A stretch of DNA of 64,000 nt, taken from positions 1-64,000 of the forward strand of contig JAFUOP010000016.1 in assembly GCA_017481875.1 (NCBI GenBank), in the 5' to 3' direction. Position 1 is the stretch's first letter. Every line of letters starts with the position of its first letter. Under the pieces are notes generated by a model. That model had not been told where the DNA came from and searched no databases. It saw only the letters and a program-made list of their open reading frames with translations. Positions 2,081-59,339 of this stretch are shown in pieces. A program made the position numbers and the translations under genes. This stretch comes from Bacteroidaceae bacterium (lineage in GTDB: Bacteria; Bacteroidota; Bacteroidia; Bacteroidales; Bacteroidaceae).

Positions 2081-2115
2081 CAGACATCAACACTAATTAT
2101 AAAAAACAGAAACTT

Positions 2116-4710: not shown

Positions 4711-4733
4711 AGAATAGCTGTCTTCAATGGATA

Positions 4734-4770
4734 AAGACGCTGCCCGATGGGCAGCGTCTTATTTTTTTTT
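4734..4770 (+). terminator. Rho-independent terminator
   Basis: A 12-bp perfect stem (4734-4745 with 4749-4760) is followed by A and nine T. It ends the GH29 operon. Confidence 0.92.
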
Positions 4771-4821
4771 TACGTTGAGCCTCTTAAATTATGGGTAACT
4801 CGCGGGCAAGAATCGGCAAAA

Positions 4822-4862
4822 CAAAACGCTAACTGCTTGGAAAATAAGTAATTAGCGTTTTG
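4822..4862. repeat. Inverted repeat next to the tRNA-derived repeat
   Basis: CAAAACGCTAA (4822-4832) pairs perfectly with TTAGCGTTTTG (4852-4862) across a 19-base spacer. It ends three bases before the tRNA-Leu-derived repeat. It could be a terminator or a structural element of an old insertion. The rest of 4771-5050 shows no gene. Confidence 0.6.
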
Positions 4863-4865
4863 TGG

Positions 4866-4883
4866 AGTACTCGAAGCGGGACT
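4866..4883. repeat. 18-bp direct repeat of the tRNA-Leu 3' end (candidate attachment site)
   Basis: AGTACTCGAAGCGGGACT is identical, and in the same orientation, to 7293-7310, which holds the last 16 bases of tRNA-Leu(TAA) plus two flanking bases. Duplication of a tRNA 3' end is the usual mark of site-specific integration, here bracketing about 2.4 kb. No integrase is present between the copies. Confidence 0.65.
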
Positions 4884-5056
4884 ATTGAATATACATTGTG
4901 TTACTTTTTATTACACCTTAATAGCACTGATTATCAATGAGATATAAAGGTGTTTCTGCAATATAGAGGGATGTTTGAAAATGTAAAAGGTGATATTTTT
5001 TATGCTTCTCCCTATATAAAATATAGAATTATACTTTATGTTTTTACTCATTTGTT

Positions 5057-5064
5057 TATATTTG
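5057..5064 (+). promoter_or_regulatory. Candidate -7 box for the adenine deaminase gene
   Basis: TATATTTG matches TAnnTTTG and is followed by CG, as at other promoters in this window. It lies about 67 bases before the start codon. No clear -33 element is seen. Confidence 0.45.
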
Positions 5065-5130
5065 CGAAAAGCTACGATTGATATTTTAACAAATTCGTAT
5101 GCATTGTTTGGCTCTTAATAAATTACTGCT

Positions 5131-6874
5131 ATGAAAAAGACACTATTTATTCTGACGGCTTTAGTTCTTATCGCGCTGGGGCCTATCTCTTGCGAAACGA
5201 GTTCATCAAGTGATTATCCTCCCAAGAAGGTACTCTATGGCAACATTGTAGATGTGAAAGCACGTAAGGTGTTCCCGGGAGAATTAACAATATGTAGTGG
5301 TAAGGTGGTTTCGGTAAAGGAAACTGCCGGTGTATATGATACATATATCCTACCCGGCTTTGTCGATTCTCATATACATATAGAGAGTACACTTATGGTG
5401 CCCGAGAATTATGCTCGTATGGCAGTGGCAAATGGTGTTGTTGCAGCTGTGTGCGACCCTCACGAAATAGCCAATGTACTGGGTGTCGAAGGTATTGATT
5501 TTATGATAGACAATGGCAAGCAAGCGCGTTTCTATTTCAATTTTATGGCTCCATCTTGTGTCCCTTCCACTATATTTGAGACATCGGGAGCCACAATAGA
5601 TGCGGAACAGGTGGCACAACTGATGCAACGCGATGATATTATGGGGCTTGCCGAGATGATGAATGTACCCGGTGTTGTGTATGATGATGCTCAGGTTTTG
5701 GCTAAACTACAGGCTGCCAAAGATGCCGGAAAACCTATAGATGGACACGCGCCAAAGACATCGGGCGACGATTTGCGAAAATATGTGGCTGCGGGTGTTT
5801 CTACCGACCATGAGTGTACCTCTATTGATGAGGCTAAGGAGAAATTGGATTTAGGAATGAAAATCATCATCAGAGAGGGAAGTGCTGCATGCGACTTCGA
5901 AGCTCTTTACCCCTTGATACAAGAATACCCCGGGCAGTTACTCTTTTGCTCCGATGATATGTATCCCGATGATGTAGAGACTATCGGATATATAAACGGC
6001 CTTGTAAAGAGGGCTGTTGCAAAGGGTATGCCTCTGTGGGAAACGCTTGAGACTGCTTGCCTTACCCCTGTTACACATTATAAACTTAAGAACGGTCTAT
6101 TAAAAGAGGGCGATGCCGCCGATTTTATTATAGTAAATAATCTTGATGAATTTAAGATTTTATCGACATACATACAGGGCTACGAGGTATATAATGCCAA
6201 TATAGGCGTGACCGATGCATTGCAATGCGCATCTGCTGCTGTAGTAACTTCGGCTTTGAATAAATTCAAAGCCGAGGAGATTGAGGAAACCGACATCTTG
6301 GTTAAGTGTGAAGGAGAAAATATGAAAGTTATTACAGCTGTCGAGGGCTCTCTCATTACAGGAAAAGAGGTGGTGGCTGCAAGGAGCGATGCACAAGGAA
6401 ATGTAGTTACCGACGTGCAGGCGGGTATAGCCAAACTTGTTGTATATAACCGATATGCTGCAGCTGCCCCCCCAAGTAGCATATATAAAAGGCTTTGGCT
6501 TGCATAAAGGTGCATTGGCTTCTACCATTGCACACGATAGTCATAACATAATAGCGGTGGGCTGCGATGACAAAGACATAGTAAATGTAATAAACAAACT
6601 GATTTCCGAAAAAGGTGGAATTGCGGTTAGCAATGGTAATGATATAAAATGTCTTCCTCTTCCCATAGCCGGATTGATGACAACCCTTAAAGCCGAGGAG
6701 GTTGCCAATAGTCATTTGGAACTGAAACAGATGGCAAAAGAACTCGGCTGTGTTATAAATGCTCCATATATGACTATGGCATTTATGGCTTTACCCGTTA
6801 TCCCCGACCTTAAACTCACCGATATGGGCCTGTTCGATGGTATTGCATTTGGCTTTACATCGTTATGGGAATAG
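5131..6874 (+). pseudogene. ade: Adenine deaminase with lipoprotein signal, frameshifted at a C7 run
   Basis: Adenine deaminases convert adenine to hypoxanthine with a dinuclear metal site. Metal-site motifs are intact: DSHIHIEST (HxH), DPHEIANV, DGHAPKT, STDHECTS and FCSDDMYPDD. The first frame (5131-6507) reads through a run of seven C (6467-6473), then goes out of frame and stops. The remaining C-terminal domain (PQVAYIKGFGLHKGA to FGFTSLWE) continues in another frame to 6874. Removing one C restores a product of about 580 residues, the family length. Unusually, the N-terminus (MKKTLFILTA, LGPISC) is a lipoprotein signal, whereas the enzyme is normally cytoplasmic. The frameshift could be real decay, phase variation, or a homopolymer sequencing error. 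The gene lies inside the tRNA-bounded islet. Confidence 0.85.
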
Positions 6875-6986
6875 TCTATAAGGCTTTTTGTAAAGAATGT
6901 TGAATTATTTATTTATAACTATAATAGTTTCAATGAGATAAAATAAAACATATAGAAAGTGTTTCCCCTATAGTGTTATTTAATAA

Positions 6987-7225
6987 TTACTTGTTCCATA
7001 TCTCCCACGATGCCAACGCCTGTAGGTACCACATTTCGTACCCGCTTTTGGTGGCTGCCCCTTGTGCCGCTCCTTTTTGCAATAATAGGGTATTTTCGGG
7101 GTTATAGACTATGTCGTACAGTAGGTGGCTTGCATTCAGTTGCTCGTAAGGGATTGTGGGGCATTGGTCTATGCCGTGCCCCACCATTCCAAGCGGTGTG
7201 CAGTTTATTATGAGCGTGTGAGTGC
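6987..7225 (-). pseudogene. aroE: Orphan C-terminal fragment of shikimate dehydrogenase
   Basis: The minus-strand frame encodes about 79 residues matching the C-terminus of AroE: IINCTPLGM, CPTIPYEQL, LLYDIVYNPENT and the closing WEIWNK before the stop at 6987. The N-terminal shikimate-binding part and most of the NADP domain, about 170 residues, are missing: upstream on this strand come a terminator and tRNA-Leu. The frame runs open to 7259, but the residues before about 7225 do not look like AroE. It is therefore a truncated gene, left by a deletion or recombination at the tRNA. A complete aroE may exist elsewhere. Confidence 0.8.
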
Positions 7226-7237
7226 GCATAATCTTGT

Positions 7238-7283
7238 AAAAAAGAATAACCCCTCGCAAGAGATTGTCTTACAAGGGATTATT
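7238..7283 (-). terminator. Terminator of the tRNA-Leu gene
   Basis: On the minus strand, arms at 7274-7283 and 7245-7254 form a 10-bp stem with one G-U pair, followed by C and six T (7243-7238). It lies just downstream of tRNA-Leu. Confidence 0.75.
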
Positions 7284-7292
7284 GAGATTTTT

Positions 7293-7310
7293 AGTACTCG
7301 AAGCGGGACT
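7293..7310. repeat. 18-bp direct repeat at the tRNA-Leu 3' end (partner of 4866-4883)
   Basis: This is the copy inside the intact tRNA gene, covering the 3' acceptor strand and part of the T arm. With 4866-4883 it brackets the adenine deaminase and the aroE fragment. Confidence 0.65.
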
Positions 7311-7380
7311 TGAACCCGCACGGCGTTTAAATGCCAAAGGATTTTAAGTCCTTCGTGTCTACCAATTCCACCATTCGAGC
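7295..7380 (-). tRNA. tRNA-Leu (anticodon TAA)
   Basis: The minus strand folds into a type II tRNA of 86 bases. The acceptor is GCTCGAA with TTCGAGT plus discriminator A. The anticodon stem is AAGGA with TCCTT around loop CTTAAAA, giving anticodon TAA. A variable arm (GGCATTTAAACGCC) and a T arm with GGTTCAAGTCC are present. CCA is not encoded. Confidence 0.95.
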
Positions 7381-7414
7381 GACCTTAAAATTTTGCTTTT
7401 TTGCAAAAGCAGTG

Positions 7415-7445
7415 CAAAGATAATTGCTTTTGCCCATAAATCAAA
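7415..7445 (-). promoter_or_regulatory. Promoter of tRNA-Leu
   Basis: On the minus strand TTTG (7445-7442) is followed after 19 bases by TATCTTTG (7422-7415), an exact match to the Bacteroidetes -33/-7 pattern, about 35 bases before the tRNA 5' end. Confidence 0.75.
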
Positions 7446-7500
7446 ACAATAGGGCGTTTTATTTTCTTTTGTACTTGGGGCTGTTTAAATTCTGAAGATA

Positions 7501-8022
7501 TTAATTGGCTACGACTATATAGGGTGGGAGCCCCTCTACAACCCTGTATCGCCACAGTGGGCGTGTGTCGCCTTCAATGGGTATTCCTCCGCTGTTGAGG
7601 TCGTATTTGCTACCACATTTGTTGCAGTGTGCGTGCCCTATTGGTAGTGTTATTGTGAGTTTTCTGCTGCGTAGGTCGCATTTGGGGCAGGCAAGGTCGA
7701 ATGCCCATTTATTCCCGTCGTAGGCTGCCGGTGTACCTATTATGAGCCCGCCCAGCCCATAGTGGAATGTACCTTGCTGCAGTTGTATTGCTGTGAGGTT
7801 TTCGGTGCGTTCTACCTCATTGCGCCCTTCGTAGTAGCGTATTTTGTATGCTGTGCCACCGCTGCGTGTTATGGTTATGAATTGCCCCAGTCCTTGTACT
7901 ATGTTGTATGGGTAGGTCGATGCATCGCAGCTGAAATATACCGGGTACCCCGAATTGCTCCTTTCGTCGTCGCAAGCGGCAAGCATTAGTATTGTGGCTA
8001 TTATGAATATTGTTCTTTTCAT
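7501..8022 (-). CDS. Lipoprotein with paired CxxC motifs, Rieske-like or zinc-ribbon-like
   Basis: A 173-residue lipoprotein: MKRTIFIIAT, lipobox LAAC. I chose the ATG at 8022 because the signal peptide begins there; an upstream in-frame start adds 14 unlikely residues. The body is beta-rich. The C-terminal third holds ACPKCD and HCNKCGS followed by YDLNSGG, the layout of a Rieske fold, but both ligand loops are CxxC rather than the Cys-His pairs of a Rieske cluster. It may bind zinc or iron without being a true Rieske protein. It is preceded on the same strand by argH and a terminator, so it is probably expressed on its own. Confidence 0.75.
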   Translation of the reverse strand: MKRTIFIIATILMLAACDDERSNSGYPVYFSCDASTYPYNIVQGLGQFITITRSGGTAYKIRYYEGRNEVERTENLTAIQLQQGTFHYGLGGLIIGTPAAYDGNKWAFDLACPKCDLRSRKLTITLPIGHAHCNKCGSKYDLNSGGIPIEGDTRPLWRYRVVEGLPPYIVVAN

Positions 8023-8048
8023 CGTGTGTTTTTTATGTGTATGTGCAA

Positions 8049-8095
8049 TTAAAAACGCAACCACGCTGCATTTATTATGCTGCGCGGTTGCGTTT
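8049..8095 (-). terminator. Terminator downstream of argH
   Basis: Arms at about 8077-8095 and 8053-8071 pair over 19 positions with one mismatch. On the minus strand the hairpin is followed by a short T-rich stretch. Confidence 0.75.
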
Positions 8096-8109
8096 AACTG
8101 TTTTTATCA

Positions 8110-9450
8110 TCAGAGGGTAAGCAGTGCCTTCTCGGCCTCTTTTACTTTTTCAAAGTTCATTGAACCGTATATGTTTTCCATAATGGCTGTTATCTGCTCG
8201 TTGCACAGGTTGCCTATGCTGCCTTCGTGCGTGTGGTTTATCTTCTTGTTGGGGGTGAATGTACCGGCCTCAATGTCGAGCCCCACCTTCTTGTATGCGT
8301 CGCGGAAGGGCATTCCCTCGGCTGCAAGGCGGTTCACCTCCTCCACGCTGAACATTGCGTCGTAGCGACTGTCTTGCAGTATATTCTCGTTTACCTCTAT
8401 GCGCTTTATTATGTAGGTTGCCATTGCAAGGCACTCTTTAAGCTCGCCGAAGGCGGGCAGGAAGAGTTCTTTTATTATTTGCAGGTCGCGGAAGTAACCG
8501 CTGGGCAGGTTGTTCATTATGAGAATTATGTCGGTGGGCAGTGCTTGCAGGCGGTTGCACTTGGCGCGCAGCAGCTCAAACACATCGGGGTTCTTCTTGT
8601 GTGGCATGATGCTGCTGCCTGTGGTGCACTCGGCAGGCAGTTTCACAAAACCGAAATTCTGCGAGTTGAACATACAGGCATCGAATGCCATCTTAGCAAG
8701 TGTGCCGGCTACGGTTGCGAGGGCGTATGCTACGTTCCTTTCGCACTTGCCGCGCCCCATTTGTGCATATACCACGTTGTAGTTCATTGAGTCGAACCCA
8801 AGCAGTTCGGTGGTCATTGTGCGGTTGAGCGGGAACGACGAGCCGTAGCCTGCTGCCGAACCAAGCGGGTTGCGGTTGCACATCTTGTAGGCTGCCTGCA
8901 GAAAGAGCATATCATCGGCAAGGCTCTCGGCGTATGCGCCGAACCATAGTCCGAACGAAGAGGGCATCGCCACCTGCAGGTGGGTGTAGCCGGGCATAAG
9001 CACCTCTTTGTGCTTGTTGCTCTGCTCAATGAGTGCATAGAACAACTCCTTTACAGCCTCGCACACATCTTGCAGCTCCTTGCGGGTGAAGAGCTTGAGG
9101 TCGAGAAGAACTTGGTCGTTGCGTGAACGGCCGCTGTGTATCTTCTTGCCGGTGTCGCCAAGCTTGCGAGTGAGCATAAGCTCCACCTGTGAGTGTACGT
9201 CTTCCACGCCCTCTTCAATTACAAATTCACCTTTTTCAATGGTGCCGTAAATGTTGCGCAGTTCAGCGTGCAGGCTCTCTTTCTCCTCATTGGTGAGCAT
9301 GCCTATTGTGGCAAGCATAGCACTGTGTGCCAGTGAGCCCAGCACATCGTAGCGGGCAAGGAAGAGGTCGAGTTCGCGGTCTTTGCCCACTGTGAAACGC
9401 TCAATCTCGGGGTTTACGTCTATATTCTTTTCCCAAAGTTTTTTTGCCAT
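8110..9450 (-). CDS. argH: Argininosuccinate lyase
   Basis: Cleaves argininosuccinate to arginine and fumarate, the last step of arginine synthesis, in the cytoplasm. The start MAKKLWEKN (9450) is preferred over the in-frame ATG at 9462, as ArgH proteins usually begin this way; it gives 446 residues. Seen are DVHSQVE, HSGRSRNDQV near 105, the YTHLQVAMPSS segment and the fumarase-superfamily signature GSSIMPHKKNPD with its catalytic serine. Last gene of a pyrE, SRPBCC, argH unit, 16 bases behind its neighbour. argB lies at the far end of the window, so the arginine genes are not clustered. Confidence 0.96.
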   Translation of the reverse strand: MAKKLWEKNIDVNPEIERFTVGKDRELDLFLARYDVLGSLAHSAMLATIGMLTNEEKESLHAELRNIYGTIEKGEFVIEEGVEDVHSQVELMLTRKLGDTGKKIHSGRSRNDQVLLDLKLFTRKELQDVCEAVKELFYALIEQSNKHKEVLMPGYTHLQVAMPSSFGLWFGAYAESLADDMLFLQAAYKMCNRNPLGSAAGYGSSFPLNRTMTTELLGFDSMNYNVVYAQMGRGKCERNVAYALATVAGTLAKMAFDACMFNSQNFGFVKLPAECTTGSSIMPHKKNPDVFELLRAKCNRLQALPTDIILIMNNLPSGYFRDLQIIKELFLPAFGELKECLAMATYIIKRIEVNENILQDSRYDAMFSVEEVNRLAAEGMPFRDAYKKVGLDIEAGTFTPNKKINHTHEGSIGNLCNEQITAIMENIYGSMNFEKVKEAEKALLTL

Positions 9451-44425: not shown

Positions 44426-44452
44426 AAGTTTGTCTATGGACAGACTTTTTTT
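44426..44452 (+). terminator. Terminator-like hairpin before the nucleotidase gene
   Basis: A 9-bp stem around loop TATG followed by seven T. It overlaps the candidate -33 box of the next gene, so it may be a leftover of an earlier gene or a regulatory hairpin. Confidence 0.5.
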
Positions 44453-44462
44453 CATATATTTG
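44429..44462 (+). promoter_or_regulatory. Candidate promoter of the nucleotidase gene
   Basis: TTTG (44429-44432), 22 bases, then TATATTTG (44455-44462), 25 bases before the start codon. Confidence 0.45.
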
Positions 44463-44486
44463 TACAGAGTTAAAATTCATCTACTT

Positions 44487-46121
44487 ATGTATATTAAAAA
44501 TGTTTTAATGTTATCTTTGGTTGTTTGCTCTTGCATATTCTGTGCTTGTAGCGATGAAATCCCCGAGCAGATTCAGCTTCCGGATTTGCCAACTCAACCA
44601 ATTATTATTTTGTATGATAACGATGTTCATTGCAGTATAGACGGCTATCCGATGCTTGTATCGTATCGCGGCGAGTGTTTGTCTATCACTGATTATGTTT
44701 CGACTATATCTTGTGGCGATTTCGCAAGTGGAGGCCTTGCTGGTGCTATATCAAAAGGTGAACGGATTGTCGAGATTATGAATTATGTAGGCTATGATGT
44801 TGTAACTTTAGGTAATCACGAACTTGACTATTGAATGGAACAGATGTTCAACATTACCGAGGCCCTAGATGCACCCGTTGTGTGTGCCAACTTTAAGAAT
44901 GTACAAACCAACACTTATCCATACCCGGCCTATCATATTGTTCGTTATGGCGAAGTTGATGTGGCTTACATCGGGTTTACCACAACGACGAGCGGCACAG
45001 TAACAAGCCTGAGTGATGAGCAGGGCAATCCGCTTTATAGCTTCATGCGCGAGGGATTTTACGAGAATGCCCAATATTTTATAGACGAAGCCCGCCGGAA
45101 CGGGGCCGATTATGTCATTGCGCTCTCTCATTTGGGCGATAGTGAGAAGACGGGAGGCCATCCCAATTCTACGAGTTTAATCGCCCACACTACGGGTTTG
45201 GATGCAGTAATTGATGGTCACGACCATCACGTTATTGAAAAACAAATTGTGAACAACAAAGACGGCAAGCCTGTTTTGCTAACTTCTTCCGGCACAAACT
45301 TTCAATATATCGGCCAACTAACTATCAAAACCGACGGAACTATACATTCTTCGCTTACAGATATAGTTAATGGCGAAGTTTCAGCCGATAATAAGGCGCA
45401 AGATTTCATCAATTGCTTGAAAGAAGATATTGGGAGCCAGGGTAATTTTGTCATTGGAAATAGCGAAGTGGACCTTATGATTTATAATGCCGATGGAACA
45501 CGTATCGTCCGCAAACAGGAATCCAACCTCGGTGATTTCTGTGCAGATGCCTTGCGCGTTTTCACTGATGCCGATATTGCTTTAATTAATGGTGGTGGTA
45601 TTCGCACCAATATAAATCGTGGTAACATTCTGTTCAACGACCTTTATAATGTAATGCCTTTTGGTGATATGATTACTACGGGAATCATTACCGGACAACA
45701 ACTACTTGATGTATTGGAGTTTTCAGTTTCTTCTCTACCTGCCGAATCGGGTTCTTTCATGCAAGTTAGCGGTTTGCGCTTTTATGTTAATCCCTCTATT
45801 CCATCTCCCGTAGTGAAAGATTCGGAAACTTCGTTATTCTCGTATGTGGGAGAGGGTAATCGCCGTGTCTCTAATGTAGAGGTTTTGGATAAAGAAAGTG
45901 GAAAGTACAAAGAGATAGAATTATCACACCAATATATAATGGCGACATTGGATTACCTAATCCTCGAACAAGGCGCTTCGGGTATATTTAATCAGGTAAA
46001 ACCAATTTCAACCTATTGGGGAGCGGATATAGAAATTCTACGTCATTACCTTGAAGATAGTCTTGGTGGTTACGTTGGCGTTGAGTATAGTGAACCTCAA
46101 GGACGTATTATATTCAAATAA
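44487..46121 (+). pseudogene. 5'-nucleotidase/UshA-family lipoprotein interrupted by TGA
   Basis: Family members dephosphorylate extracellular nucleotides. The first part (44487-44834) has a lipoprotein signal (MYIKNVLMLS, IFCAC) and metal motifs YDNDVHCSID, SCGDFASGG and LGNHELDY. A TGA (44832-44834) stands where the family has Gly (GNHE-DYG), a single-base change from GGA. The same frame resumes at once with ATG (44835) and runs 428 residues to 46121 with GHDHHVI, the C-terminal substrate domain (GGGIRTNINRG, YNVMPFGDM) and a normal end. Neither half alone holds the full metal site. Start chosen at the signal peptide. Confidence 0.88.
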
Positions 46122-48140: not shown

Positions 48141-48254
48141 CGGTAAACAGCAATTCGTAACTCTTTTTTTTACTATTTTTATACCCCGAATTTGAACTGT
48201 GATGGGCGTGATGCCCTGTGTGCCGTTTTAAAAACTGTTTATGGTATATTGTTT

Positions 48255-50771
48255 ATGAAAAACATAATAAAAACAATTGCTTTGGTGTTGCTTTGTGTAC
48301 TGTATGCGGCTTGTGCCGGGCAGGGCGGTAATGAGTCCCTTTACTGTGCAGGCGTGTCGCAGCAACTTGCCGAGCATCGTGCGCAGAATATCTCCGATGT
48401 ACATTATTCGCTATCCTTCTCAATCCCTTATGAAAAGGATAGTGCTGTGGTTGGCTGTGCCGAAATCTCTTTTAAAATAGCAGCCCCGCAGGAAGTTGTC
48501 CTCGATTTCAGGGATTTGCAGAATGTGAGCAGTGTGGCGGTGAATGGCACAGCCTTGCAGCCTGTTTTGTGCAACGAACATATAATTCTGCCTGCTACGG
48601 CAATGGTGGCAGGCGAGAATAGCGTTTTGCTCTCTTTTGTTGCCGGCAACCAATCGCTTAACAGGAATAACGAGTATCTATATACTCTTTTTGTGCCCGA
48701 CCGTGCCCGCACGGCCTTCCCCTGCTTCGACCAGCCATCGATGAAGGCTCTTTTTGAGCTTACACTCGAGATTCCTGCTGAGTGGGTGGCCGTGTCCAAT
48801 ACTGCAGTGGTTACCGATAGCGTGGTGGGTGGCCGAAGGCTGGTCTCCTTTGGCCGAACCGAGCCGTTGAGCACCTATCTTTTCTCTTTTGTTGCGGGCA
48901 AGTTCAGCCACAGCACGTATAACGATAAAGGACGCACCATCACTGCCTATCACCGCGAGACCGATGCGGCACGTGTGGCGCAGCTGCCTGTGATATTCAA
49001 TCAGGTGGTGGCATCGCTCGATTGGCTCGAGGAATACACCGGTATTGCCTACCCCTTTGCAAAATACGATTTTGTTATTCTCCCCGGCTTCCAATACGGT
49101 GGTATGGAGCACACAGGGGCCACCCTCTACAATGATGCAGCCCTCTTCCTCGGTGCGCACCCGACACCCGACGAGGTGCTCTCCCGTGCCCAAATCATAG
49201 CCCACGAAACTGCACATATGTGGTTCGGCGACTTGGTTACAATGGAGTGGTTCGATGATGTGTGGACAAAAGAGGTCTTTGCCAACTACTTCGAGGCGCG
49301 TATGACGGAGCCGCTCTTCCCGCAGGTGAATCACCGCCTTGAGCGGTTACGCCGTGTGGTGGTTTCGGCAATGAGCGAGGACCGCACAATGGGCACCACG
49401 CCCATAAAGCAGCCGCTTGGCAATTTAAACGATGCCGGGCTTGTCTATAGCAATATAATATATGACAAAGCACCCGTGATGCTCGAAAAACTTGTGGAGA
49501 TAATGGGTGAAGACGCCTTCCGCGAGGGGGTGCGCGACTATCTACACCGTTTTTCCTATGGCAACGCCACGTGGGAAGGATTGATAGATATCTTCGATTC
49601 CAAGTGCAGTGCCGACTTGCGTGCATTCAGCAACGCGTGGGTGCACGAACGTGGTATGCCGCACATATCTTTTTTGCTCGACGGGCAAAATCTTGTCGTG
49701 CGCCAGAGCGACCCTCTGGGCCGTGGGCTTGTGTGGCCGCAGCGTTTTAATGTGCGGCTTGTGGGCGACACGGTGTGCGATGTGAGGGTAAGCATTGCCG
49801 ATACCCTGCAGGTGGTGTCTCTGCCGTGCAAGGCGCAATATATATTGCCCAATAGCGATGGGCGTGGCTATGGTTATTTCCGCCCCTGCGACGGTAGCAT
49901 AGCATGGTTGCTCTCCAATTGGTGGAAGATAGATGACGAGGTATGTCGTCAGGCGCAGTTGATAAACCTTCACGAGTGCTACCAACTGGGTGTTGTAGAG
50001 GCCACGGAATGGATAAATTCTGTTATTGCCGGCCTTGAGGTGGAGAGCGATGCACTTGTGGCATCTACTCTGTGCAGTTATCTTCCGTTGCCATTGAGCG
50101 AGTTACGGGATAGTGCTCTGGAGCAGCGTTTGCTTGCTTTGTCGCAGAATCACAGCTTGGCGTCGTGTCGGCTCCAGTTGTTGCGCACCTTGGTGTCGTC
50201 GGCCTCTTCGCCTGCAGTGTGCAACTATATATACAATGTGTGGGAGGGTGGTGCACACCCATTGGCAAGCGAGAGCGATTATATGAATATGGCCTACGAG
50301 CTTGCTTTGCACTACCCTCAAAAATATCAATATATTGTGGAGAAACAGGCTACCCGAATAAAGAACCCCGACAGAGCACGGCAGTTTGCCTTTATATCGC
50401 AGGCTGTGAACCCGTCGGTAGCCGAGCAGGAGCGGTTGTTTAATCATCTGCTCACGCCCGAAGGCCGCCGCACCGAGCCGTGGGCCATAAAAGCTCTCTC
50501 GCTCCTGTGCCACCCGTCGCGCGAGAAACAGGCGGTAAAATATATCCGCCCTGCGCTCGATGCCTTGCAGGGGATACAGCGCACCAACGATATATTCTTC
50601 CCCACACGCTGGGTAAGGGCTCTGTTGCGTCCCTGCAGGAGTGCTGCTGCCGCTGCCGCCCTCAACGGTTTCTTGAGCGACAACCCAGCCTACCCCCCAT
50701 TGCTCAAAAGCAAAATATTGCAAGCCGCGTGGCTGCTCTACAGGGCACAAGGCATCACTCCCACCTATTAA
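48255..50771 (+). CDS. M1-family aminopeptidase, lipoprotein
   Basis: An 838-residue zinc aminopeptidase with a lipoprotein signal (MKNIIKTIAL, YAAC). An N-terminal beta domain (about 40-215) precedes the catalytic domain with HETAH (317-321), the third ligand Glu in WTKEVFANYFE near 340, and a C-terminal helical ERAP1-like domain (about 560-838). The exopeptidase motif reads GGMEH where GxMEN is the norm. The ATG at 48255 starts the signal peptide; the frame opens earlier, at 48192, without one. Its last 17 bases overlap the end of the gene opposite. Confidence 0.92.
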   Translation: MKNIIKTIALVLLCVLYAACAGQGGNESLYCAGVSQQLAEHRAQNISDVHYSLSFSIPYEKDSAVVGCAEISFKIAAPQEVVLDFRDLQNVSSVAVNGTALQPVLCNEHIILPATAMVAGENSVLLSFVAGNQSLNRNNEYLYTLFVPDRARTAFPCFDQPSMKALFELTLEIPAEWVAVSNTAVVTDSVVGGRRLVSFGRTEPLSTYLFSFVAGKFSHSTYNDKGRTITAYHRETDAARVAQLPVIFNQVVASLDWLEEYTGIAYPFAKYDFVILPGFQYGGMEHTGATLYNDAALFLGAHPTPDEVLSRAQIIAHETAHMWFGDLVTMEWFDDVWTKEVFANYFEARMTEPLFPQVNHRLERLRRVVVSAMSEDRTMGTTPIKQPLGNLNDAGLVYSNIIYDKAPVMLEKLVEIMGEDAFREGVRDYLHRFSYGNATWEGLIDIFDSKCSADLRAFSNAWVHERGMPHISFLLDGQNLVVRQSDPLGRGLVWPQRFNVRLVGDTVCDVRVSIADTLQVVSLPCKAQYILPNSDGRGYGYFRPCDGSIAWLLSNWWKIDDEVCRQAQLINLHECYQLGVVEATEWINSVIAGLEVESDALVASTLCSYLPLPLSELRDSALEQRLLALSQNHSLASCRLQLLRTLVSSASSPAVCNYIYNVWEGGAHPLASESDYMNMAYELALHYPQKYQYIVEKQATRIKNPDRARQFAFISQAVNPSVAEQERLFNHLLTPEGRRTEPWAIKALSLLCHPSREKQAVKYIRPALDALQGIQRTNDIFFPTRWVRALLRPCRSAAAAAALNGFLSDNPAYPPLLKSKILQAAWLLYRAQGITPTY

Positions 50772-51249
50772 CCCAATGCTTTTCTATAAGCGGTTGCAGC
50801 TCGGCGGGGTCGCCGAGCTTCGCTTTTTTGCACTCTTCCATTATGTAGTCGCGCAGCTCGGTGGGGAAATCTTTGGCCTTTTCCCAATACTCTATGCGCC
50901 CCATCCAAGAGCCGTGGAAGGTAGTGTCGCTGGTTAGTGTTAGTTCCCCTTTTCGCCCGCACTCGGTATATTCTCCATTGCGGTATATGTATGTGCAGTA
51001 CAGGTAGGGCATAATTTTGTACGCACCGCTGCGTAGCTTGCTCACCTGAGCACTATAGTATTTACCATCGTCGCCAAAAATCTTTATAGATGCAAAGTCG
51101 TTGTCAAAGTAGCGGTCGCCCACGCTATACGACTTGTATATCCACACCCCTTTGAGTGCGTCGGCCGGTATTGTCTGTGCGTGTGCGCAGGCAATGATAT
51201 GCGCAAAAATGCATAGCAACAAAAAATGTTTAATAATACCTCTTTTCAT
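50755..51249 (-). CDS. Small secreted lipocalin-like protein (DUF4488-like)
   Basis: A 164-residue exported protein with signal peptide (ending ACAHAQ). KGVWIYKSYSVG, then GDDGKYYSAQ, ELTLTSDTTFHGSWMGRIEYWEK, look like a small eight-stranded barrel of the lipocalin or DUF4488 type. It resembles the periplasmic sensor part of the regulator encoded 42 bases upstream on the same strand. It may bind the same ligand or modulate the regulator; this is inference. Its 3' end overlaps the aminopeptidase gene by 17 bases. Confidence 0.7.
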   Translation of the reverse strand: MKRGIIKHFLLLCIFAHIIACAHAQTIPADALKGVWIYKSYSVGDRYFDNDFASIKIFGDDGKYYSAQVSKLRSGAYKIMPYLYCTYIYRNGEYTECGRKGELTLTSDTTFHGSWMGRIEYWEKAKDFPTELRDYIMEECKKAKLGDPAELQPLIEKHWVNRWE

Positions 51250-51291
51250 AATTGTTTCATTTAACGTTAATAAAGGTGTTTTTTATCTCTG

Positions 51292-52323
51292 TCATAGTGT
51301 TGCAATGAAATTGTCCCACTCCTTTGAACTCCCTTTCTTGCCGAACACTTTGTAGTATAGGCGGCTGCGAGTGCTGCTTATGCTACTTGTCTCTTTGCAT
51401 AGAATGGTTGCTATCTGTGAAGGTGGAACGCCTATTTTCAGCAGCAGACATACTCGGAACTCGTGTACGGACATATGGCATAAGTGGCGCAAGCGGCTTG
51501 TGAAACTCGGATATACAGGTTTCAGCTTTTGCTCAAGTTCATAGAACTCCTCATCTTTCAATATTTCGCCACGTTCAATGCGTCCCAGCAATATTCTATA
51601 GTACTCTGAACCAAAGAAATCCTGTTCCACTTGTTGCATTGCCATTGCCACAGGCTGTGGGAGCAGGTTGTTCTGCTCGCGTATCTGCTCCAGTTCCTGC
51701 TTTATTACTATGTTCTTTTTGAATGCCTGCCACCCGTAGAGGGCAAGAATGCCGATGAAAAGGAGAGAAATTGTGAGTAGATATATAAGCTCGTTGTTGG
51801 TGCGGCGCAGTTCCCGTTCCGATGTGGATAGTACAAAATTGGTGGTGGCACTGTCGCGCTTGTCTATATTGTGTTTTACAATGTTTTTAATCTCATTTCG
51901 TCTGTGGTTGCTCATTGTATTTACCTTTACCCACGTCTCCAGTTCCAAATTGTTTTGTACGGTGTAGGTGGTGTCGTTTACGAAACTCATATACATCATA
52001 AAACGCCCATTCTCTACAAGTAGCGTGTCGCTGTTGTCGTGTACAAATGTGTATTTTGCCATCTCTTGTGGAATAACAATCATATCGCTCCCTGCCGATA
52101 ACAGTTCTACGTGGTAAAATGTACTGTCGGGCTCATAAATTTTACATCGGGTGTAGCCTTGCTTGTCGGGGTAGGCATATGTGTATCCTGTGGGGAATGT
52201 AACCTTTTGCAAGGCCCACACCCCTGTCATTGTCAGCTCCTGTGTGTTCTTATCGCCACTGCTATTGCAGTTATAAAATAGAGTGGTCGCAAGCAGCAAT
52301 AGAGTGAAATCTGTTATTTTCAT
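51292..52323 (-). CDS. Membrane-anchored HTH regulator with periplasmic lipocalin-like sensor
   Basis: A 343-residue one-component regulator. An N-terminal signal (LLLLATTLFYNC) leads to a beta-rich domain (about 32-145, TGVWALQKVTFP to NNLELETWVKV). A short helical linker (to about 180) precedes a membrane helix (YLLTISLLFIGILALYGW) and a coiled-coil segment. The cytoplasmic C-terminus (about 265-343) has a LuxR/GerE-like helix-turn-helix (VCLLLKIGVPPSQIATILCK, SSTRSRLYYKVF). It has no kinase or receiver domain. Its gene is divergent from the GH95 fucosidase, a likely target. Confidence 0.78.
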   Translation of the reverse strand: MKITDFTLLLLATTLFYNCNSSGDKNTQELTMTGVWALQKVTFPTGYTYAYPDKQGYTRCKIYEPDSTFYHVELLSAGSDMIVIPQEMAKYTFVHDNSDTLLVENGRFMMYMSFVNDTTYTVQNNLELETWVKVNTMSNHRRNEIKNIVKHNIDKRDSATTNFVLSTSERELRRTNNELIYLLTISLLFIGILALYGWQAFKKNIVIKQELEQIREQNNLLPQPVAMAMQQVEQDFFGSEYYRILLGRIERGEILKDEEFYELEQKLKPVYPSFTSRLRHLCHMSVHEFRVCLLLKIGVPPSQIATILCKETSSISSTRSRLYYKVFGKKGSSKEWDNFIATL

Positions 52324-52387
52324 TGCATACGGTTTATGTCTGTGGCAAATTTATATAATAGTGATTGTAAATTCATTGGCTTTGCTT

Positions 52388-52402
52388 TGCAAAAAGTTTG
52401 CA
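52388..52402. promoter_or_regulatory. Dyad in the regulator-GH95 intergenic region
   Basis: TGCAAA-AAG-TTTGCA is a perfect 6+3+6 dyad, 65 bases before the regulator start and 175 before the GH95 start. It could be the operator of the membrane regulator. The 253-base region is A/T-rich and has no clear TAnnTTTG box toward GH95. Confidence 0.35.
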
Positions 52403-52576
52403 TTTCTGAATTATTGCATTTATATGGTCTATTGTTTAAATTTAATAGAACTTATTTGTATAAGTCGCAAAAATTTATCAATTTTACAAAGAAATTCCTT
52501 AATATAGCATAAACTACCCGTTTATGTGCAGGGGATTGTAAAAACAAAATCTATTAACTAACTAAATATCAACACT

Positions 52577-55500
52577 ATGATTAAAAGAATTTATACCCTT
52601 TTAATTGCGCTTTGCGCATTTGCTGCGGTTAAAGCGCAGGCACCTTCGCCCACCTTCTCAACAGAGGAGGCACCTGTATGGTATTATATCCAGTTCAAGA
52701 CAGGTGAGGCAATTCTTGGCGACCAGGGCGATGGCAACAACCTTCTCACAATGAAGGGAGCCGAAAGCCCCAACCAGTGGGCACTTATCGGAGATGCCGA
52801 CAATTTTTATCTAAAGAGCCGTTGGGGTAATTATGTCTATTACACCAACAGCAAGTTTACATCAAGTTCAACCAGTAAAACTCCGTTACGTCTTGTTTCA
52901 AGCCCCAATTATAATGGTTACTTTGAGATTCAGCGTACAGCTGCGGCCGGAAATAGCATGAACCAATGGGGTGGTGCCGGTGTCGGTAAAGAGCTTGGCG
53001 AGTGGAATGCGGGCGACGTGAATAATCCCATCTCTTTTGTAACAGAGATGCCTGCTCCCGTGCCTGATTATTTCAGCTACGAGGACGCTCCCGAGTATTA
53101 TTATATACAGTTTGCCAATGGCGAGAATCTTCTCGTAGATAATGGCGATGGCGCGAATATCACGACCGCGCTTGTTAAAAACGAGACAAAAAACCAGTGG
53201 ATGATGATGGGTAGCCCCTCAATGTTCTATATGAAGAGCCAGGCCGGCAATTGGGTATATTACGACGAGGGCAACAACCTCTTTACCACATCATCTACAA
53301 GCCGCACACCCTTGCGCCTTGTTACTACCGGCAATGCTACATATCCCGGTTGCTACGAGATACAGCGCACTGCAGCATCTAATAAGTCAATGAACCAGAA
53401 TGGTGGTACTGCTGTAGGAGTAACCATTTGTGAATGGAATGCAGGCGACTCCAATAACCCCCTTACAATAAATTCCTGTGTTCCGCCCGTTCCTGCTATG
53501 AGTGAAGGCGACGACGAGTATTGGTATGTAATTCACTTCTTGGGGGTCGATCAATATCTCCGCGATGGTGAAGTGGGTACCGTTCCCGGGCACGTAGATC
53601 CCATTGTGAAGAAAGAGACACTTTGGAAGTTCACAGGGTCAAAGGACAATATGCAGATTATAAGCAACAGTGGCAAGTATTTAAGTATTGTAGATGATGC
53701 ACCCGTGCTTTCTGATGAGGCTTATGCTGCAGGTTTCAAATTGGTTGAAACAAACTATTCAACAAACCCCTATAAGTGGGAGATTCACTCAGCCGATGCC
53801 AATCTGTCAAAATATAAATTGCAGTTGGGAAAAGCATCGGGTAAGATAAAAGACCTTGCTCTTGCAAGTACCTCTAAAAGTGGTTACTACCCTGTTGTGT
53901 TTATGTCGCCCGATGATATAAGAGGCAATTACGACGATTTCTATGTTGCAGGTATCGAGGGCTATACCCCCGAGCACAAACACACATTGTGGTACACCAA
54001 ACCTGCTACCCTCACCGGTGTTTCAAATACTTGGATGGAATACTCTCTGCCCATTGGTAACGGCCAGTTCGGAGCTTCGCTCTTCGGTGGCGTGCAGACA
54101 GATGAAATTCAGTTCAATGAAAAAACTTTATGGAGTGGTGGCCCGTCGCAGTATGGTATATACGAGAACTTTGGTAGCGTGTTCGTAGATGATATGAGCT
54201 ACGAGTTTGGTTACGGAGCACAGAATGGTGTAACCGATTATTACCGTCAGCTCGACCTTGAAAATGCTACAGGTACCGTATGCTACAAAAACTCCGACAA
54301 GAGTGTTGAGTACAAGCGTGAGTATATTGCAAGCTACCCCGACAAAGCAGTTGTGTGGCGTTACACCGCAAGCGAGGAGGGCAAAATAAGTCTCCGTTTC
54401 TCAATGGCAAGCGGTGCCCCCGGCATTGTTGCCACAACTACCTACAGCGACGGAACAGCTTCGTTCAGCGGCTCATTACAGACAATCAGCTACGCTGCTC
54501 ATTTGAAGGTTGTTCCCGATGGTGGTACAATGAAAACAACCTCTAATGGAATTACTGTCGAGAATGCAAATTCAGTACTTGTGGTGCTTGTGGGTATCAC
54601 CGACTTTGTTGCCGACCAGGTATCGCACGTGTCGGGTCGCAAGGACGACCTTCCTGCCGATGCCGCAGCACAAGCCGATGCTGCAGCTTCACAGGGCTGG
54701 GAGTCGCTTTACAGCAAGCACGTTGCCGATTTTGAGCAATACTTTGGCCGTGTGTCGTTTGAAATTGCAGGTACCGAGAACGTAATGCCTACAAATGAAA
54801 TGGTTGATGCCTACAATGCAGGCTCAATGGCAGGTAACCTAATGCTCGAGCAACTATACTTCCATTATGGCCGTTATTTGGAAATATCTTCATCACGCGG
54901 TGTTGATTTGCCCAGTAACCTGCAGGGTATTTGGAATAACCGTTCCGATGCTCCTTGGCACTCCGATATTCACGCCAACATTAATGTGCAGATGAACTAT
55001 TGGCCTGCAGAGCCCACCAATTTGAGCGAGATGCACGTTCCCTTCCTCAACTATATTATAAATGAAGCATCGCAGCCCGAGTGGCAGAATAGAGCGAATA
55101 TAGCAGGCGAGAGCCGTGGTTGGACTTGCCTCACCGAGAACAATATCTTTGGCGGTATCAGTGGCTTTGCACCCAACTATGTAATTGCAAATGCTTGGTA
55201 CGGCACACACTTGTGGCAGCACTACCGTTACACCCTCGACAAGGAGTATCTTGCAAAAGCCTTCCCCGCAATGCTTGGTGCAGCGCAGTTCTGGGCCGAC
55301 CGTATGGTGCTTGCTGCCGACGGTACATACGAGTGCCCCAATGAGTACTCGCCCGAGCATGGTCCCGGCAGCGAGAATGCCGTTGCCCACGCACAGCAGA
55401 TTGTTTGGGAGGTACTCGACAACACAATTAAGGCTGCAGATATTCTTGGTGGCGTTGAGGCCGGCGTTATTACCGAAGCCGACTATAGCCTCATTACCGA

Positions 55501-56410
55501 CCGCTTTGCAAAAATGGACAAAGGTATTGCTACAGAAACCTATACAGGCGACTGGGGCGCAACATACAACGATGTTCCCACCGGTGCCAAGCTTATCCGT
55601 GAGTGGAAATACAGCACATTCACAGCGTCGAGCGACCGCGGCCACCGTCATATGTCGCACCTGATGGCTCTCTACCCCTTCGGTCAGATTACTCCCTCAA
55701 GCGAGTTCTTTGAGCCTGCAATCAACTCAATGAAGTTGCGTGGCGACGAATCTACCGGTTGGTCAATGGGTTGGAAGATTAACCTATGGGCACGTGCTCT
55801 TATGGGCGACCGTTCACACGCTATTTTGCGCAAGGCATTGAAGCACTCAACAAGCTATGGTACAAACCAGTATGCAGGTGGTATCTACTACAACCTCTAC
55901 GACTCACACGCACCCTTCCAAATCGACGGAAACTTCGGTGCTTGCTCGGGTATTGCCGAGATGATGTTGCAAAGCCACAGCGATACATTGCAGATTCTTC
56001 CCGCATTGCCTACCGAGTGGGCCGAAGGTAAGTTTGCCGGCCTTAAGGCTGTAGGCGACTTTACAGTAGGTGCAGAATGGGCCGAGGGCAAGGCTACACA
56101 TATAAGCATAAGCAACAACCAGGGCCAGCCTCTCTTTGTAAACTACCCGGGTCTCGACCAGGCTGCAATATATGTAAATAATGTTGCAGTTGCTCCCGAA
56201 AAGCTGAGCGACAATGTATATTCTATTCCCAGCAAGGCTGCCGACAACATTAGCATTTTCTTTGGCGAGGCAGCCACAGGCATTGAAGATACTGTAGCAG
56301 ATAAAGTAAATAGCAACAGCCCTGTTTATGACCTTGTAGGTCGCAAGATAATTGCACCCATAAAAGGCCATGTATATATTCAGGACAATAAAAAATTCAT
56401 TGCAGAATAA
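52577..56410 (+). CDS. Secreted GH95 alpha-L-fucosidase with three N-terminal lectin-like repeats
   Basis: A 1277-residue inverting fucosidase of the kind that cuts alpha-1,2-fucose from mucin or milk-type glycans. Signal peptide 1-21. Residues about 30-155 and 170-300 are clear repeats of one another (YYIQF, NQW, TPLRLV, EIQRTAA, EWNAGD), and about 308-455 is a third, diverged copy. GH95 begins near 472 (LWYTKPAT, LPIGNGQFGASLFGG). Expected catalytic residues are Glu927 (SPEHGP), Asn801 and Asn803 (NIN before MNYWPAE) and Asp1117 (IDGNFGA). The last 30 residues (VYDLVGRKI, KGHVYIQDNKK) resemble a type IX sorting tail. Confidence 0.93.
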   Translation: MIKRIYTLLIALCAFAAVKAQAPSPTFSTEEAPVWYYIQFKTGEAILGDQGDGNNLLTMKGAESPNQWALIGDADNFYLKSRWGNYVYYTNSKFTSSSTSKTPLRLVSSPNYNGYFEIQRTAAAGNSMNQWGGAGVGKELGEWNAGDVNNPISFVTEMPAPVPDYFSYEDAPEYYYIQFANGENLLVDNGDGANITTALVKNETKNQWMMMGSPSMFYMKSQAGNWVYYDEGNNLFTTSSTSRTPLRLVTTGNATYPGCYEIQRTAASNKSMNQNGGTAVGVTICEWNAGDSNNPLTINSCVPPVPAMSEGDDEYWYVIHFLGVDQYLRDGEVGTVPGHVDPIVKKETLWKFTGSKDNMQIISNSGKYLSIVDDAPVLSDEAYAAGFKLVETNYSTNPYKWEIHSADANLSKYKLQLGKASGKIKDLALASTSKSGYYPVVFMSPDDIRGNYDDFYVAGIEGYTPEHKHTLWYTKPATLTGVSNTWMEYSLPIGNGQFGASLFGGVQTDEIQFNEKTLWSGGPSQYGIYENFGSVFVDDMSYEFGYGAQNGVTDYYRQLDLENATGTVCYKNSDKSVEYKREYIASYPDKAVVWRYTASEEGKISLRFSMASGAPGIVATTTYSDGTASFSGSLQTISYAAHLKVVPDGGTMKTTSNGITVENANSVLVVLVGITDFVADQVSHVSGRKDDLPADAAAQADAAASQGWESLYSKHVADFEQYFGRVSFEIAGTENVMPTNEMVDAYNAGSMAGNLMLEQLYFHYGRYLEISSSRGVDLPSNLQGIWNNRSDAPWHSDIHANINVQMNYWPAEPTNLSEMHVPFLNYIINEASQPEWQNRANIAGESRGWTCLTENNIFGGISGFAPNYVIANAWYGTHLWQHYRYTLDKEYLAKAFPAMLGAAQFWADRMVLAADGTYECPNEYSPEHGPGSENAVAHAQQIVWEVLDNTIKAADILGGVEAGVITEADYSLITDRFAKMDKGIATETYTGDWGATYNDVPTGAKLIREWKYSTFTASSDRGHRHMSHLMALYPFGQITPSSEFFEPAINSMKLRGDESTGWSMGWKINLWARALMGDRSHAILRKALKHSTSYGTNQYAGGIYYNLYDSHAPFQIDGNFGACSGIAEMMLQSHSDTLQILPALPTEWAEGKFAGLKAVGDFTVGAEWAEGKATHISISNNQGQPLFVNYPGLDQAAIYVNNVAVAPEKLSDNVYSIPSKAADNISIFFGEAATGIEDTVADKVNSNSPVYDLVGRKIIAPIKGHVYIQDNKKFIAE

Positions 56411-57650: not shown

Positions 57651-59339
57651 CTAATATCTATTCAATTGGTTGCGGAAATTATTTACAATCTTCGCACTCT
57701 CTTTCTCAATTTTTTTCACATCAACTGTTTTCAGCAGCTTTTCAAGGCTTTTAATAGTTTGTTTGTTGCCTTTTTCTGTGGCCTCGGCAAGCAGAATCTT
57801 GTATTTTTCAAATTGCTGTATGCCCTGTACCAATCGTTCCCAGCGCACAGAACTTATACTGTGCGGGTATATCACGTATGTGTCGCCTGCGGGCCAAGCC
57901 GTGAAGCGTGAATCCTTTTCGGGCTCCACAGTCCAGCTGTTGTATGCCCAACGTAGGTAGCCGTCGAGGTCCTTTGCAAGTGCTTCAAGAGCTATGAACT
58001 CGGCATCGGCAGGGGCAGTGAAGGTGAATAGGTTGGGGTACTCGGCCGAGCAGCAGGTGTAGTAGGTCGATACCTTGCCCTCGCTGCGGCGGCGTGCAAG
58101 CAATTCGGGGGTGTATGCCGTGTATGCAAAAATATCAAGGCAATAGTCTGTAATGTCTGCCTCAATCTCGGGGTGGTAGTTGCCCGCCATAGAAATTTTC
58201 ATTCCAGGTGCATATTTTTTTATAACCTCTATTGCCGCTTGCATTTGCGGCAAGCTGCGCTCGTCCATTGAAATAAAAGTCTTTTCGAACCACCCCTTCT
58301 CCTTAAGGTGCTGTGCGAACGCCTGCAACATACCGCCCCAGAATTGCTCGTAGGCCTTCTCACCGGGGGCGCATTGTATGTATTTGTGGCTGTGTGTTGC
58401 TTGGTCGTAGTAGCGGAACGATAGCTTCCACGGAATCATAGAGAAACAGGTAATCTCCTTGTCTATGCCGCAGTCCATCATAAATTGCACCCATTTATCA
58501 AAGATAGTAAAGTCGTAGTACCAGCTACCGTCGGCTTTGCGCAGCCAGGTTACCATGCTGCCAAAGGGGTCGTGTGTCTGTCCGTTCCAGGGGCGGTCTA
58601 TGAGTGTGGCGGTTATAGCTTTTTGCCCTGCACCGGCCAATTTAGTCATATATGGGCGCAGTTTTTGGAAATGCTCTGCCGACCAAGGCTCCACACCGTG
58701 TACGCGGGCCACAGCGTATGGGTTCTGCCACAGGTCGAGGTGGAATTTCCACTCCTTGGGCGCGGGTAGTGTGCGGTTAATCACCTTCACGGTGTAGTTC
58801 ATTGTAGTGCTCTCACCGTTGCTGCTTATGGTTACCGTTCCTTTGTATCTGCCGGGTACGGCATCGGCGGGTATGCTCACTGTGAGCCATAGGCCGTTGT
58901 ATGTGTCGGCTGCAAGCTCCGCAGGGTTGGTGTCGGTTATCTTATCGGCCGAAAAGTTCTCGCCGTGCGCATCTACAGCGTGTTTGCCACAGCCTGTAAA
59001 GCGGTCGGTAATAATGTCTTGTACAAAGCCGCCTATAACATTGCCGTTGCTTATAGTGTGTTTGCCACATTTAAGGTCGCCAAAGCTATATTCAACCGTG
59101 TGTGCTGCATTTTTGCATGCTATAAGTAATTGAAAATTCACGCGCTCACCACGCCAGGCGGTGGTGCTGTTCACTGCTGTTGTGGAAATGTTGTTTGCAC
59201 TACTGCGGGGGTAGCGGGTGTCGGTGTTCCCCCACTCTACGGTGATATCTTTGTCTATAATGTTTTTGGGCGTTGTTGCACCTAACGATTGCAGTGCTAT
59301 TATAGCTATTAAAGCAAGTGAATATAGTCGTGTTGCCAT
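57651..59339 (-). CDS. GH123-like glycoside hydrolase (DUF4091)
   Basis: A 562-residue exported protein (signal peptide ending SLGAT). An N-terminal beta-sandwich (about 30-190) leads to a TIM-barrel-like region and a C-terminal DUF4091 segment. FISMDERSLPQ holds an adjacent Asp359-Glu360 pair, the arrangement used by GH123 beta-N-acetylgalactosaminidases. WAYNSWTVEP matches the DUF4091 core. The C-terminal 70 residues are a charged helix. Activity on amino-sugar glycans is likely but unproven. Confidence 0.78.
   Translation of the reverse strand: MATRLYSLALIAIIALQSLGATTPKNIIDKDITVEWGNTDTRYPRSSANNISTTAVNSTTAWRGERVNFQLLIACKNAAHTVEYSFGDLKCGKHTISNGNVIGGFVQDIITDRFTGCGKHAVDAHGENFSADKITDTNPAELAADTYNGLWLTVSIPADAVPGRYKGTVTISSNGESTTMNYTVKVINRTLPAPKEWKFHLDLWQNPYAVARVHGVEPWSAEHFQKLRPYMTKLAGAGQKAITATLIDRPWNGQTHDPFGSMVTWLRKADGSWYYDFTIFDKWVQFMMDCGIDKEITCFSMIPWKLSFRYYDQATHSHKYIQCAPGEKAYEQFWGGMLQAFAQHLKEKGWFEKTFISMDERSLPQMQAAIEVIKKYAPGMKISMAGNYHPEIEADITDYCLDIFAYTAYTPELLARRRSEGKVSTYYTCCSAEYPNLFTFTAPADAEFIALEALAKDLDGYLRWAYNSWTVEPEKDSRFTAWPAGDTYVIYPHSISSVRWERLVQGIQQFEKYKILLAEATEKGNKQTIKSLEKLLKTVDVKKIEKESAKIVNNFRNQLNRY

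Follow-up and report, generated by a model that had tools for sequence, protein, structure and literature searches.

The regulatory cassette considered here lies in a window of 64,000 nucleotides (nt), positions 1 to 64,000 of contig JAFUOP010000016.1 in the Bacteroidaceae bacterium assembly GCA_017481875.1, and consists of a gene for a membrane-held regulator, REG, and the next gene on the same strand, which codes for a secreted partner, PAR; a gene of glycoside hydrolase family 95 (GH95) is divergent from both. The host genome spans 2.0 Mb at 76% completeness, and its closest named relatives are metagenome-assembled genomes of ruminant-gut 'Bacteroidaceae' (sheep rectum, roe deer caecum, sheep colon). 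The features of the locus are as follows.

52577-56410, plus strand: GH95 (alpha-fucosidase family), secreted, divergent from REG and its proposed target (1277 amino acids; PF22124, E=1.3e-119).
52437-52444, plus strand: promoter-like box TAAATTTA facing GH95, 49 nt from the operator read the other way (from its spacing in the clade).
52385-52402, minus strand: predicted operator, the tandem repeat TGCAAAC-TTTT-TGCAAAG read towards REG, which holds a dyad at 52388-52402 (from conservation).
52346-52353, minus strand: predicted promoter -7 box TAAATTTG of REG, 49 nt from the operator start (from the consensus in PMC7366714).
51292-52323, minus strand: REG, with a signal ending in Cys19, a sensor, one membrane helix and a helix-turn-helix (HTH) (open reading frame of 343 amino acids, and homologues).
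52267-52269, minus strand: Cys19 of REG, the presumed lipidated residue, invariant in 11/11 aligned regulators.
51919-52233, minus strand: REG sensor domain, residues ~31-135 (~105 residues), with a G-x-W motif (from sequence comparison).
51733-51792, minus strand: REG membrane helix, residues ~178-197, a single hydrophobic helix (from the hydrophobicity of the sequence).
51295-51678, minus strand: C-terminal region of REG with the HTH, residues ~216-343 (a domain shared with membrane regulators of the tetratricopeptide repeat (TPR) type).
50755-51249, minus strand: PAR, the secreted homologue of the REG sensor, 42 nt behind REG (open reading frame of 164 amino acids).

An earlier note on this DNA had described REG as a regulator with a periplasmic sensor, one membrane helix and an HTH but no phosphotransfer domain, and this description holds: the signal ends in Cys19, the helix spans residues ~178-197, and Pfam and NCBIfam detect in the window REG neither a histidine kinase nor a receiver domain, the parts of a hybrid two-component system. 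These libraries offer no family for REG or PAR, DUF6377 being matched weakly (4/11 members, best E 0.015), and no Pfam HTH or DNA-binding family matches the window REG at E 1 or better. The C-terminal domain is homologous to that of TPR-type membrane regulators and of one receiver-domain protein, and this common output domain supports a role for REG in DNA binding. The lipobox of the window REG is the non-canonical L-F-Y-N-C, relatives having L-C-S-C, L-G-A-C or M-T-G-C; an earlier regular expression recovered a lipobox in 57 of 68 REGs overall, and a more lenient rule found one in all 64 scorable REGs that have a partner versus 4/13 partnerless ones. REG is thus probably lipidated, and the lipid anchor seems to accompany the partner. 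TPR-type membrane regulators with the same HTH (L015, L020 and L086:15315-16961) also start with lipobox-like signals, and anchoring of transcription factors by a lipid could be widespread in Bacteroidales.

Comparison across genomes establishes that REG and PAR form a conserved cassette, found chiefly in one bacterial family. Among 101 relatives, all 12 genomes with a match to a sensor-bearing REG also have PAR, the two genes adjoining in the loci that were read. A profile of the partner searched across 399 genomes of the family found it in 75 genomes, at 89 places and in 11 of 30 genera, and the surroundings were read for 81 of the 89 places; a separate sample of 295 genomes of the order gave four matches, including the own genome, two of another family and one fragment. 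A REG on the same strand lies 0-400 nt upstream of 66 of the 73 PARs read, the exceptions being three with no REG found (L098, L115, L116), one with reversed order (L119), two lying 1.7 kb away (L123, L127) and one second PAR (L131). Two of these, L115 and L116, are paralogues in a single genome (G302) with neither a REG nearby nor an operator. Conversely, 13 REG loci have no PAR within the fetched stretch. The open-access literature yielded no description of the pair or its operator, subscription papers not being covered.

The earlier note also held that the gene behind REG is secreted and resembles the sensor, and the evidence for this has since grown. The direct comparison of the two window proteins is marginal (pairwise BLASTP E=0.022, with 5/500 shuffles equally good); the window REG matches the PARs of related genomes at 4e-5 and 6e-5, and the partner profile matches REG sensors with a best E of 2.4e-16, from which we conclude by sequence comparison that sensor and PAR are homologous. 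The G-x-W motif occurs in 73/73 PARs, 65/67 REGs and 12/13 partnerless REGs. Lipocalins characteristically have a G-x-W where their first strand begins, and their barrel is eight-stranded and up-and-down. The predicted model of PAR is all-beta, with nine strands, two terminal helices and a mean pLDDT of 85, and homology together with the shared motif suggests a similar, barrel-like fold for the REG sensor. No lipocalin family in Pfam matched any of 12 PARs at E 1 or better, and a sequence search of the PDB returned no chain at that threshold for REG and one unrelated match (0.12) for PAR. In a tree of 153 barrels all 73 PARs form one clade (support 1.0) set against all 80 REG sensors, and the split between partner and sensor therefore appears old. 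The mean identity is 0.50 among PARs, 0.33 among REG sensors and 0.17 between the two. Three well-conserved cysteine columns of the PAR alignment (columns 57, 80 and 193, at 67, 81 and 97%) are absent from the sensors of partnered REGs; the window PAR keeps the last of them (193) and has Ser, within a YYSAQ stretch, in place of one conserved cysteine.

The region between REG and GH95 holds the perfect dyad of the earlier note, TGCAAA-aag-TTTGCA, exactly at 52388-52402. As a stand-alone signal we rejected it, since 74% of 300 shuffles of the intergenic region contain at least one comparable 6+6 dyad (5 observed, mean 1.8); we count it as real because it is conserved and fixed in position, recurring upstream of REG in nine loci of the genus that were tested, also where other genes replace GH95. 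The dyad thus survives as part of a conserved operator, but the family-wide site is a tandem direct repeat, with the right arm TTTGCA exact in only 18 of 49 sites, and belongs primarily to REG's own promoter. The element common to REG promoters is TGCAAAC-N4-TGCAAAC, of period 11, with a TAnnTTTG box 49-50 nt from the repeat start; in the relevant passages of PMC7366714 this box is the -7 consensus of Bacteroides promoters. Operator scores of 16-18 out of 18 are reached by 49/66 REG upstream regions, and none of 330 randomised (Markov) sequences reaches 15. A repeat spacing of 11 accounts for 49 sites versus 0-2 at spacings of 8-10 and 12-15, and the box stands at 49 nt (26 sites) or 50 nt (20 sites) versus 0-3 sites at any other distance from 40 to 61. 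An operator so placed would be centred ~50 nt upstream of the transcription start, which suits an activator.

The distribution of further copies ties the operator to the cassette. PARs lying 100-300 nt behind REG have their own copy of operator and box in 48 of 51 cases, and those less than 100 nt behind it, like that of the window, in 0/11. The exact operator-plus-box pattern occurs in 45 of the 75 genomes with the partner profile versus 9 of the 324 without (Fisher 2.7e-30), and the reversed operator pattern has no match in the 399 genomes. Where REG has no partner, the spacing is preserved in the promoter of the following gene, whose second half-site is TGCCAAC in 8/13 loci and both of whose half-sites are TGCCAAC in 4/13; only exact half-sites separate the subfamilies, as a score for TGCCAA alone also reaches 16 in 46 of 66 REG promoters.

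The divergent GH95 across the promoter region, the third element recognised in the earlier note, is borne out by the Pfam match given above. In the four genomes that share it the REG box stands 49, 49, 49 and 50 nt from the operator, and a box TAAATTTA or TAAAATTA facing GH95 stands 49, 49, 50 and 49 nt from it; the site is a full palindrome in the window and L042 and has one mismatch in L041 and L043. Judged by this spacing, a single site in the window's clade may serve both the REG and the GH95 direction.

We then consider the genes attached to the cassette within the genus, where the glycan- or envelope-sensing module suggested in the earlier note finds support on its glycan side: the pair is tied to glycosidases both in cis, with the divergent GH95 in four genomes (the window's included) and a secreted same-strand GH2 behind REG-PAR in six, and in trans, by operators before two GH2 genes and a GH109. 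In the window's genome the only other exact operator-plus-box copy precedes an unlinked GH2 ~75% identical to the GH2 that adjoins REG-PAR elsewhere. Across the four genomes of the clade this site scores 18, 16, 17 and 17, with 0/1200 null sequences at 16 or more, and the orthologues in 10 assessable REG-less genomes score at most 12 (0/10 with a site; the upstream region L238 of the REG-less genome G003 was left out of the count). For another unlinked GH2, which carries a ricin-type lectin domain, the scores in the same four genomes are 15, 17, 17 and 18. GH109 scores 17, 16 and 16 in three, the window's genome having no such orthologue in its assembled part; orthologues from 10 REG-less genomes score at most 13 (0/10 with a site). 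Scans of the four genomes allowing two mismatches gave 26 sites, versus one match for the reversed-pattern control: 4 before REG, 4 before GH2, 3 before the lectin-bearing GH2, 3 before GH109, 3 at a thioredoxin-like gene cluster (in the window's genome and two relatives), 1 before an unknown 1253-residue protein, and 8 others, of which 3 lie within open reading frames, 2 have no clear gene and 3 were not assigned to a group. The beta-galactosidase, alpha-fucosidase and N-acetylgalactosaminidase families of these enzymes suggest host-type glycans, and we would guess from them that the ligand is a product of such glycans. Behind the lectin-bearing GH2 and on its strand lie, at locus L304 (G000:C15), 1481-8183, minus strand, genes for a large MG2/Sel1-repeat protein, a CstA carbon-starvation transporter and a second GH109.

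The link to glycans does not extend to the family as a whole, and the pair without a nearby glycan gene, which the earlier note would have held against its own proposal, was found in many other genera. There the next genes are often outer-membrane barrels, GLPGLI-type or thioredoxin-like proteins, and operator copies precede PAR, DUF4369/AhpC-TSA and redoxin-like proteins, outer-membrane barrels and one sigma-factor-like gene (assigned by eye); partnerless REGs often precede a DUF4369-like gene. Among the families listed, the same-strand next genes outside the genus (n=35) include outer-membrane barrels 6 times, Porph_ging 4, GH3 3, GH106 once and BNR_4 once, the upstream same-strand genes (n=30) TonB_C 5 times, M56 4 and GH31 3, and the opposite-strand controls (n=26) GH43, rhamnosidase and RGL11 once each. 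These counts cover 35 of 45, 30 of 35 and 26 of 38 genes and the top 25 families of each set, with the six GH2 loci, L050 and L120-L122 left out of the next-gene count. As glycosidases are not clearly commoner among next genes than among opposite-strand neighbours outside the genus, we rejected a general link to them; most likely the other genera control other genes.

Among described systems, VtrA/VtrC and ToxR/ToxS, as presented in parts of PMC9214523, similarly combine a membrane-held factor with an adjacent, downstream periplasmic lipocalin-like partner and have fast-evolving sensors; their HTH, unlike that of REG, is N-terminal and CadC-like, and the periplasmic domain of their factor is not a lipocalin. 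The adjacent downstream partner in the same orientation is present here for 66 of 73 PARs, and an N-terminal CadC-like HTH followed by a membrane helix is absent from REG: compared with VtrA/VtrC, REG has the opposite domain order, a different kind of HTH at its C-terminus and a lipobox, and its sensor and PAR are barrels related to each other. The available text of PMC9214523 has no mention of 'Bacteroid'. SusR-like regulators, in the passages of PMC3878776 that deal with them, have in common with REG a sensor in the periplasm, a helix in the inner membrane, a C-terminal HTH in the cytoplasm, direct-repeat sites and the control of glycan genes nearby; those passages describe no partner protein, and the distance between repeats predicted for SusR is 67 or 77 bp versus 11 bp here, this being a comparison of descriptions. 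In passages of PMC10269533 the transmembrane transcription regulators likewise appear as one-component factors acting from the membrane and are said to be enriched in Bacteroidia, but they form a broad functional class within which those passages do not name the REG family. This analysis also recovered the TPR-membrane helix-HTH regulators of Bacteroidales, with a homologous C-terminal domain and, in several, a lipobox-like signal; their sensor is of the TPR type and not a barrel (Pfam TPR in 2/7 tested). We know of no partner for these regulators. Because of the reversed HTH position, the lack of sequence relation to VtrA/VtrC and the 11-bp instead of 67- or 77-bp repeat, REG-PAR fits neither the co-component nor the SusR type; by analogy, it may work like the former and be built like the latter.

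Starting from what comparison of sequences gives directly (the pair, the homology of its two barrels, the operator, its spacing and its copies before target genes), we propose with a probability of roughly 55% that REG-PAR is an autoregulated, co-component-like sensor pair that drives glycan enzymes in the window's clade. REG would be a membrane-held one-component transcription factor whose lipocalin-like periplasmic sensor is tethered twice, by the lipidated N-terminal cysteine and by the membrane helix, and PAR would be its free periplasmic sister barrel, acting as a co-sensor with the REG sensor as in VtrA/VtrC. In the presence of ligand the cytoplasmic HTH, probably as a dimer, would bind the two tandem TGCAAAC half-sites 11 bp apart and, from an operator centred ~50 nt upstream of the transcription start, activate rather than repress the TAnnTTTG promoter that follows the first half-site at 49-50 nt. 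REG would thereby amplify its own operon and, in this clade, switch on GH95 through the shared divergent site, the two GH2 beta-galactosidases and, in three relatives, GH109, so that its regulon would be small and scattered.

Several observations weigh against parts of this proposal. The operator site is missing from 17 of 66 REG promoters (3 being those of partnerless REGs), a copy precedes only 2/5 PARs lying 300 nt or more from REG, and 2/3 PARs without REG have none. The box on the GH95 side departs from the consensus at its last base and was defined after inspection, and the four genomes with bidirectional spacing are close relatives. The five scored GH2 genes adjoining REG-PAR have no operator of their own (0/5, scores no higher than 11), as one would expect of genes transcribed together with PAR. 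GH109 of the GH2-type clade likewise has no site (0/5, score at most 13), and the 3/3 for GH109 in the window's clade is partly circular, its sites having come from the scan itself. The unlinked targets have long leaders, their start codons lying 190-280 nt beyond the site, and at GH2 another promoter-like element stands closer to the gene. Contact between PAR and REG, in the manner of the obligate heterodimers of co-component systems, is favoured indirectly by the correlation of sensor and PAR distances (r 0.81; partial r 0.62 beyond the HTH; 54 non-redundant pairs; 0/1000 permutations), which is weak evidence because both barrels evolve fast, and neither protein matches the solved VtrA/VtrC chains in sequence.

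Among other explanations, the one we doubt least, if still a tentative one, is that the pair senses the state of the envelope or of thiols and that the glycan link of the genus is secondary. The operator copies before DUF4369/AhpC-TSA and redoxin proteins and outer-membrane barrels in other genera, the DUF4369-like genes behind partnerless REGs, the site at the thioredoxin-like cluster of the window's genome and two relatives, and the three conserved cysteine columns of PAR (97, 81 and 67%) would all suit such a sensor; four glycosidase genes of four families or subtypes that are linked by position or operator in the genus do not, nor does the Ser that replaces one of these cysteines in the window PAR. 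Somewhat less probable is the idea of the earlier note that PAR is a decoy or sink, competing with the REG sensor for one ligand and so weakening the response. PAR does resemble the sensor stripped of its membrane and DNA-binding parts and shares the predicted regulation of REG, as would be expected of a feedback sink, but its better conservation (0.50 vs 0.33) and its old, separate clade (73/73, support 1.0) better fit a dedicated partner than a copy of the sensor, and the mean PAR-REG identity of 0.17 and the 13 REG loci found without PAR also speak against it; we regard a co-sensor as more likely than a competitor for ligand.

The operator could instead belong to a more general regulator with REG-PAR as merely one member of its regulon, since the pattern occurs in nine genomes without the partner profile, at times before unrelated genes such as an alpha-amylase (L218), and the TPR-type relatives sharing the HTH could read similar sites. 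We consider this improbable: two of the nine genomes (G163, G417) hold REG or sensor fragments, the GH2 and GH109 orthologues have the site only when REG is in the genome, and the TGCCAAC half-sites of partnerless loci, at unchanged spacing, look as if the site tracks the regulator subfamily. We regard it as very improbable that the TGCAAAC repeat is no operator but serves the upstream gene, as a terminator or another structure; a T run does follow a perfectly palindromic copy in some cases (L114 for example, and downstream of partnerless REGs), but most sites are direct repeats at a fixed 49-50 nt from the box, and copies recur before PAR and the unlinked targets.

Beyond the proposed sensor pair, we speculate that REG-PAR is a lipocalin co-component system of Bacteroidota with a lipoprotein transcription factor, in which two related barrels, one tethered by lipid and membrane helix and the other free, would jointly detect a ligand from the host or the envelope, perhaps a hydrophobic or lipid-linked one, and a positively autoregulated, bidirectional tandem operator would direct scattered enzymes for the removal of galactose, fucose and N-acetylgalactosamine from host-type glycans; this fuller picture is possible, though we would not lean on it. 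If the heterodimer is real, lipocalin co-component sensing would have arisen in Bacteroidota with reversed topology. A regulator family unnamed in Pfam and NCBIfam, which in a major gut family reaches no fewer than 11 of the 30 genera sampled, acquires a predicted sensor, partner, operator and regulon; the operator rule (tandem repeats with an 11-bp period, 49-50 nt away from the promoter box) allows this regulon to be read from genome sequence and the idea to be checked with one reporter, and the cassette suggests a route for co-ordinating unlinked glycosidases independently of polysaccharide utilization loci.

Elsewhere in the window, an M1-family peptidase (48192-50771, from the open reading frame list and Pfam) is convergent on PAR, and the 3' ends of the two genes overlap by 17 nt (50755-50771), with the same convergent overlap in L041-L043. 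Two genes beyond GH95 lies a GH123 (57651-59339, minus strand; PF13320, E=1e-107), a possible extra member of the glycan set with no scored operator. Farther off, the open reading frames at 44430-44834 and 44835-46121 (plus strand) share a frame with one stop codon between them and jointly resemble one longer secreted enzyme, by eye 5'-nucleotidase-like, possibly as a broken gene or a sequence error.

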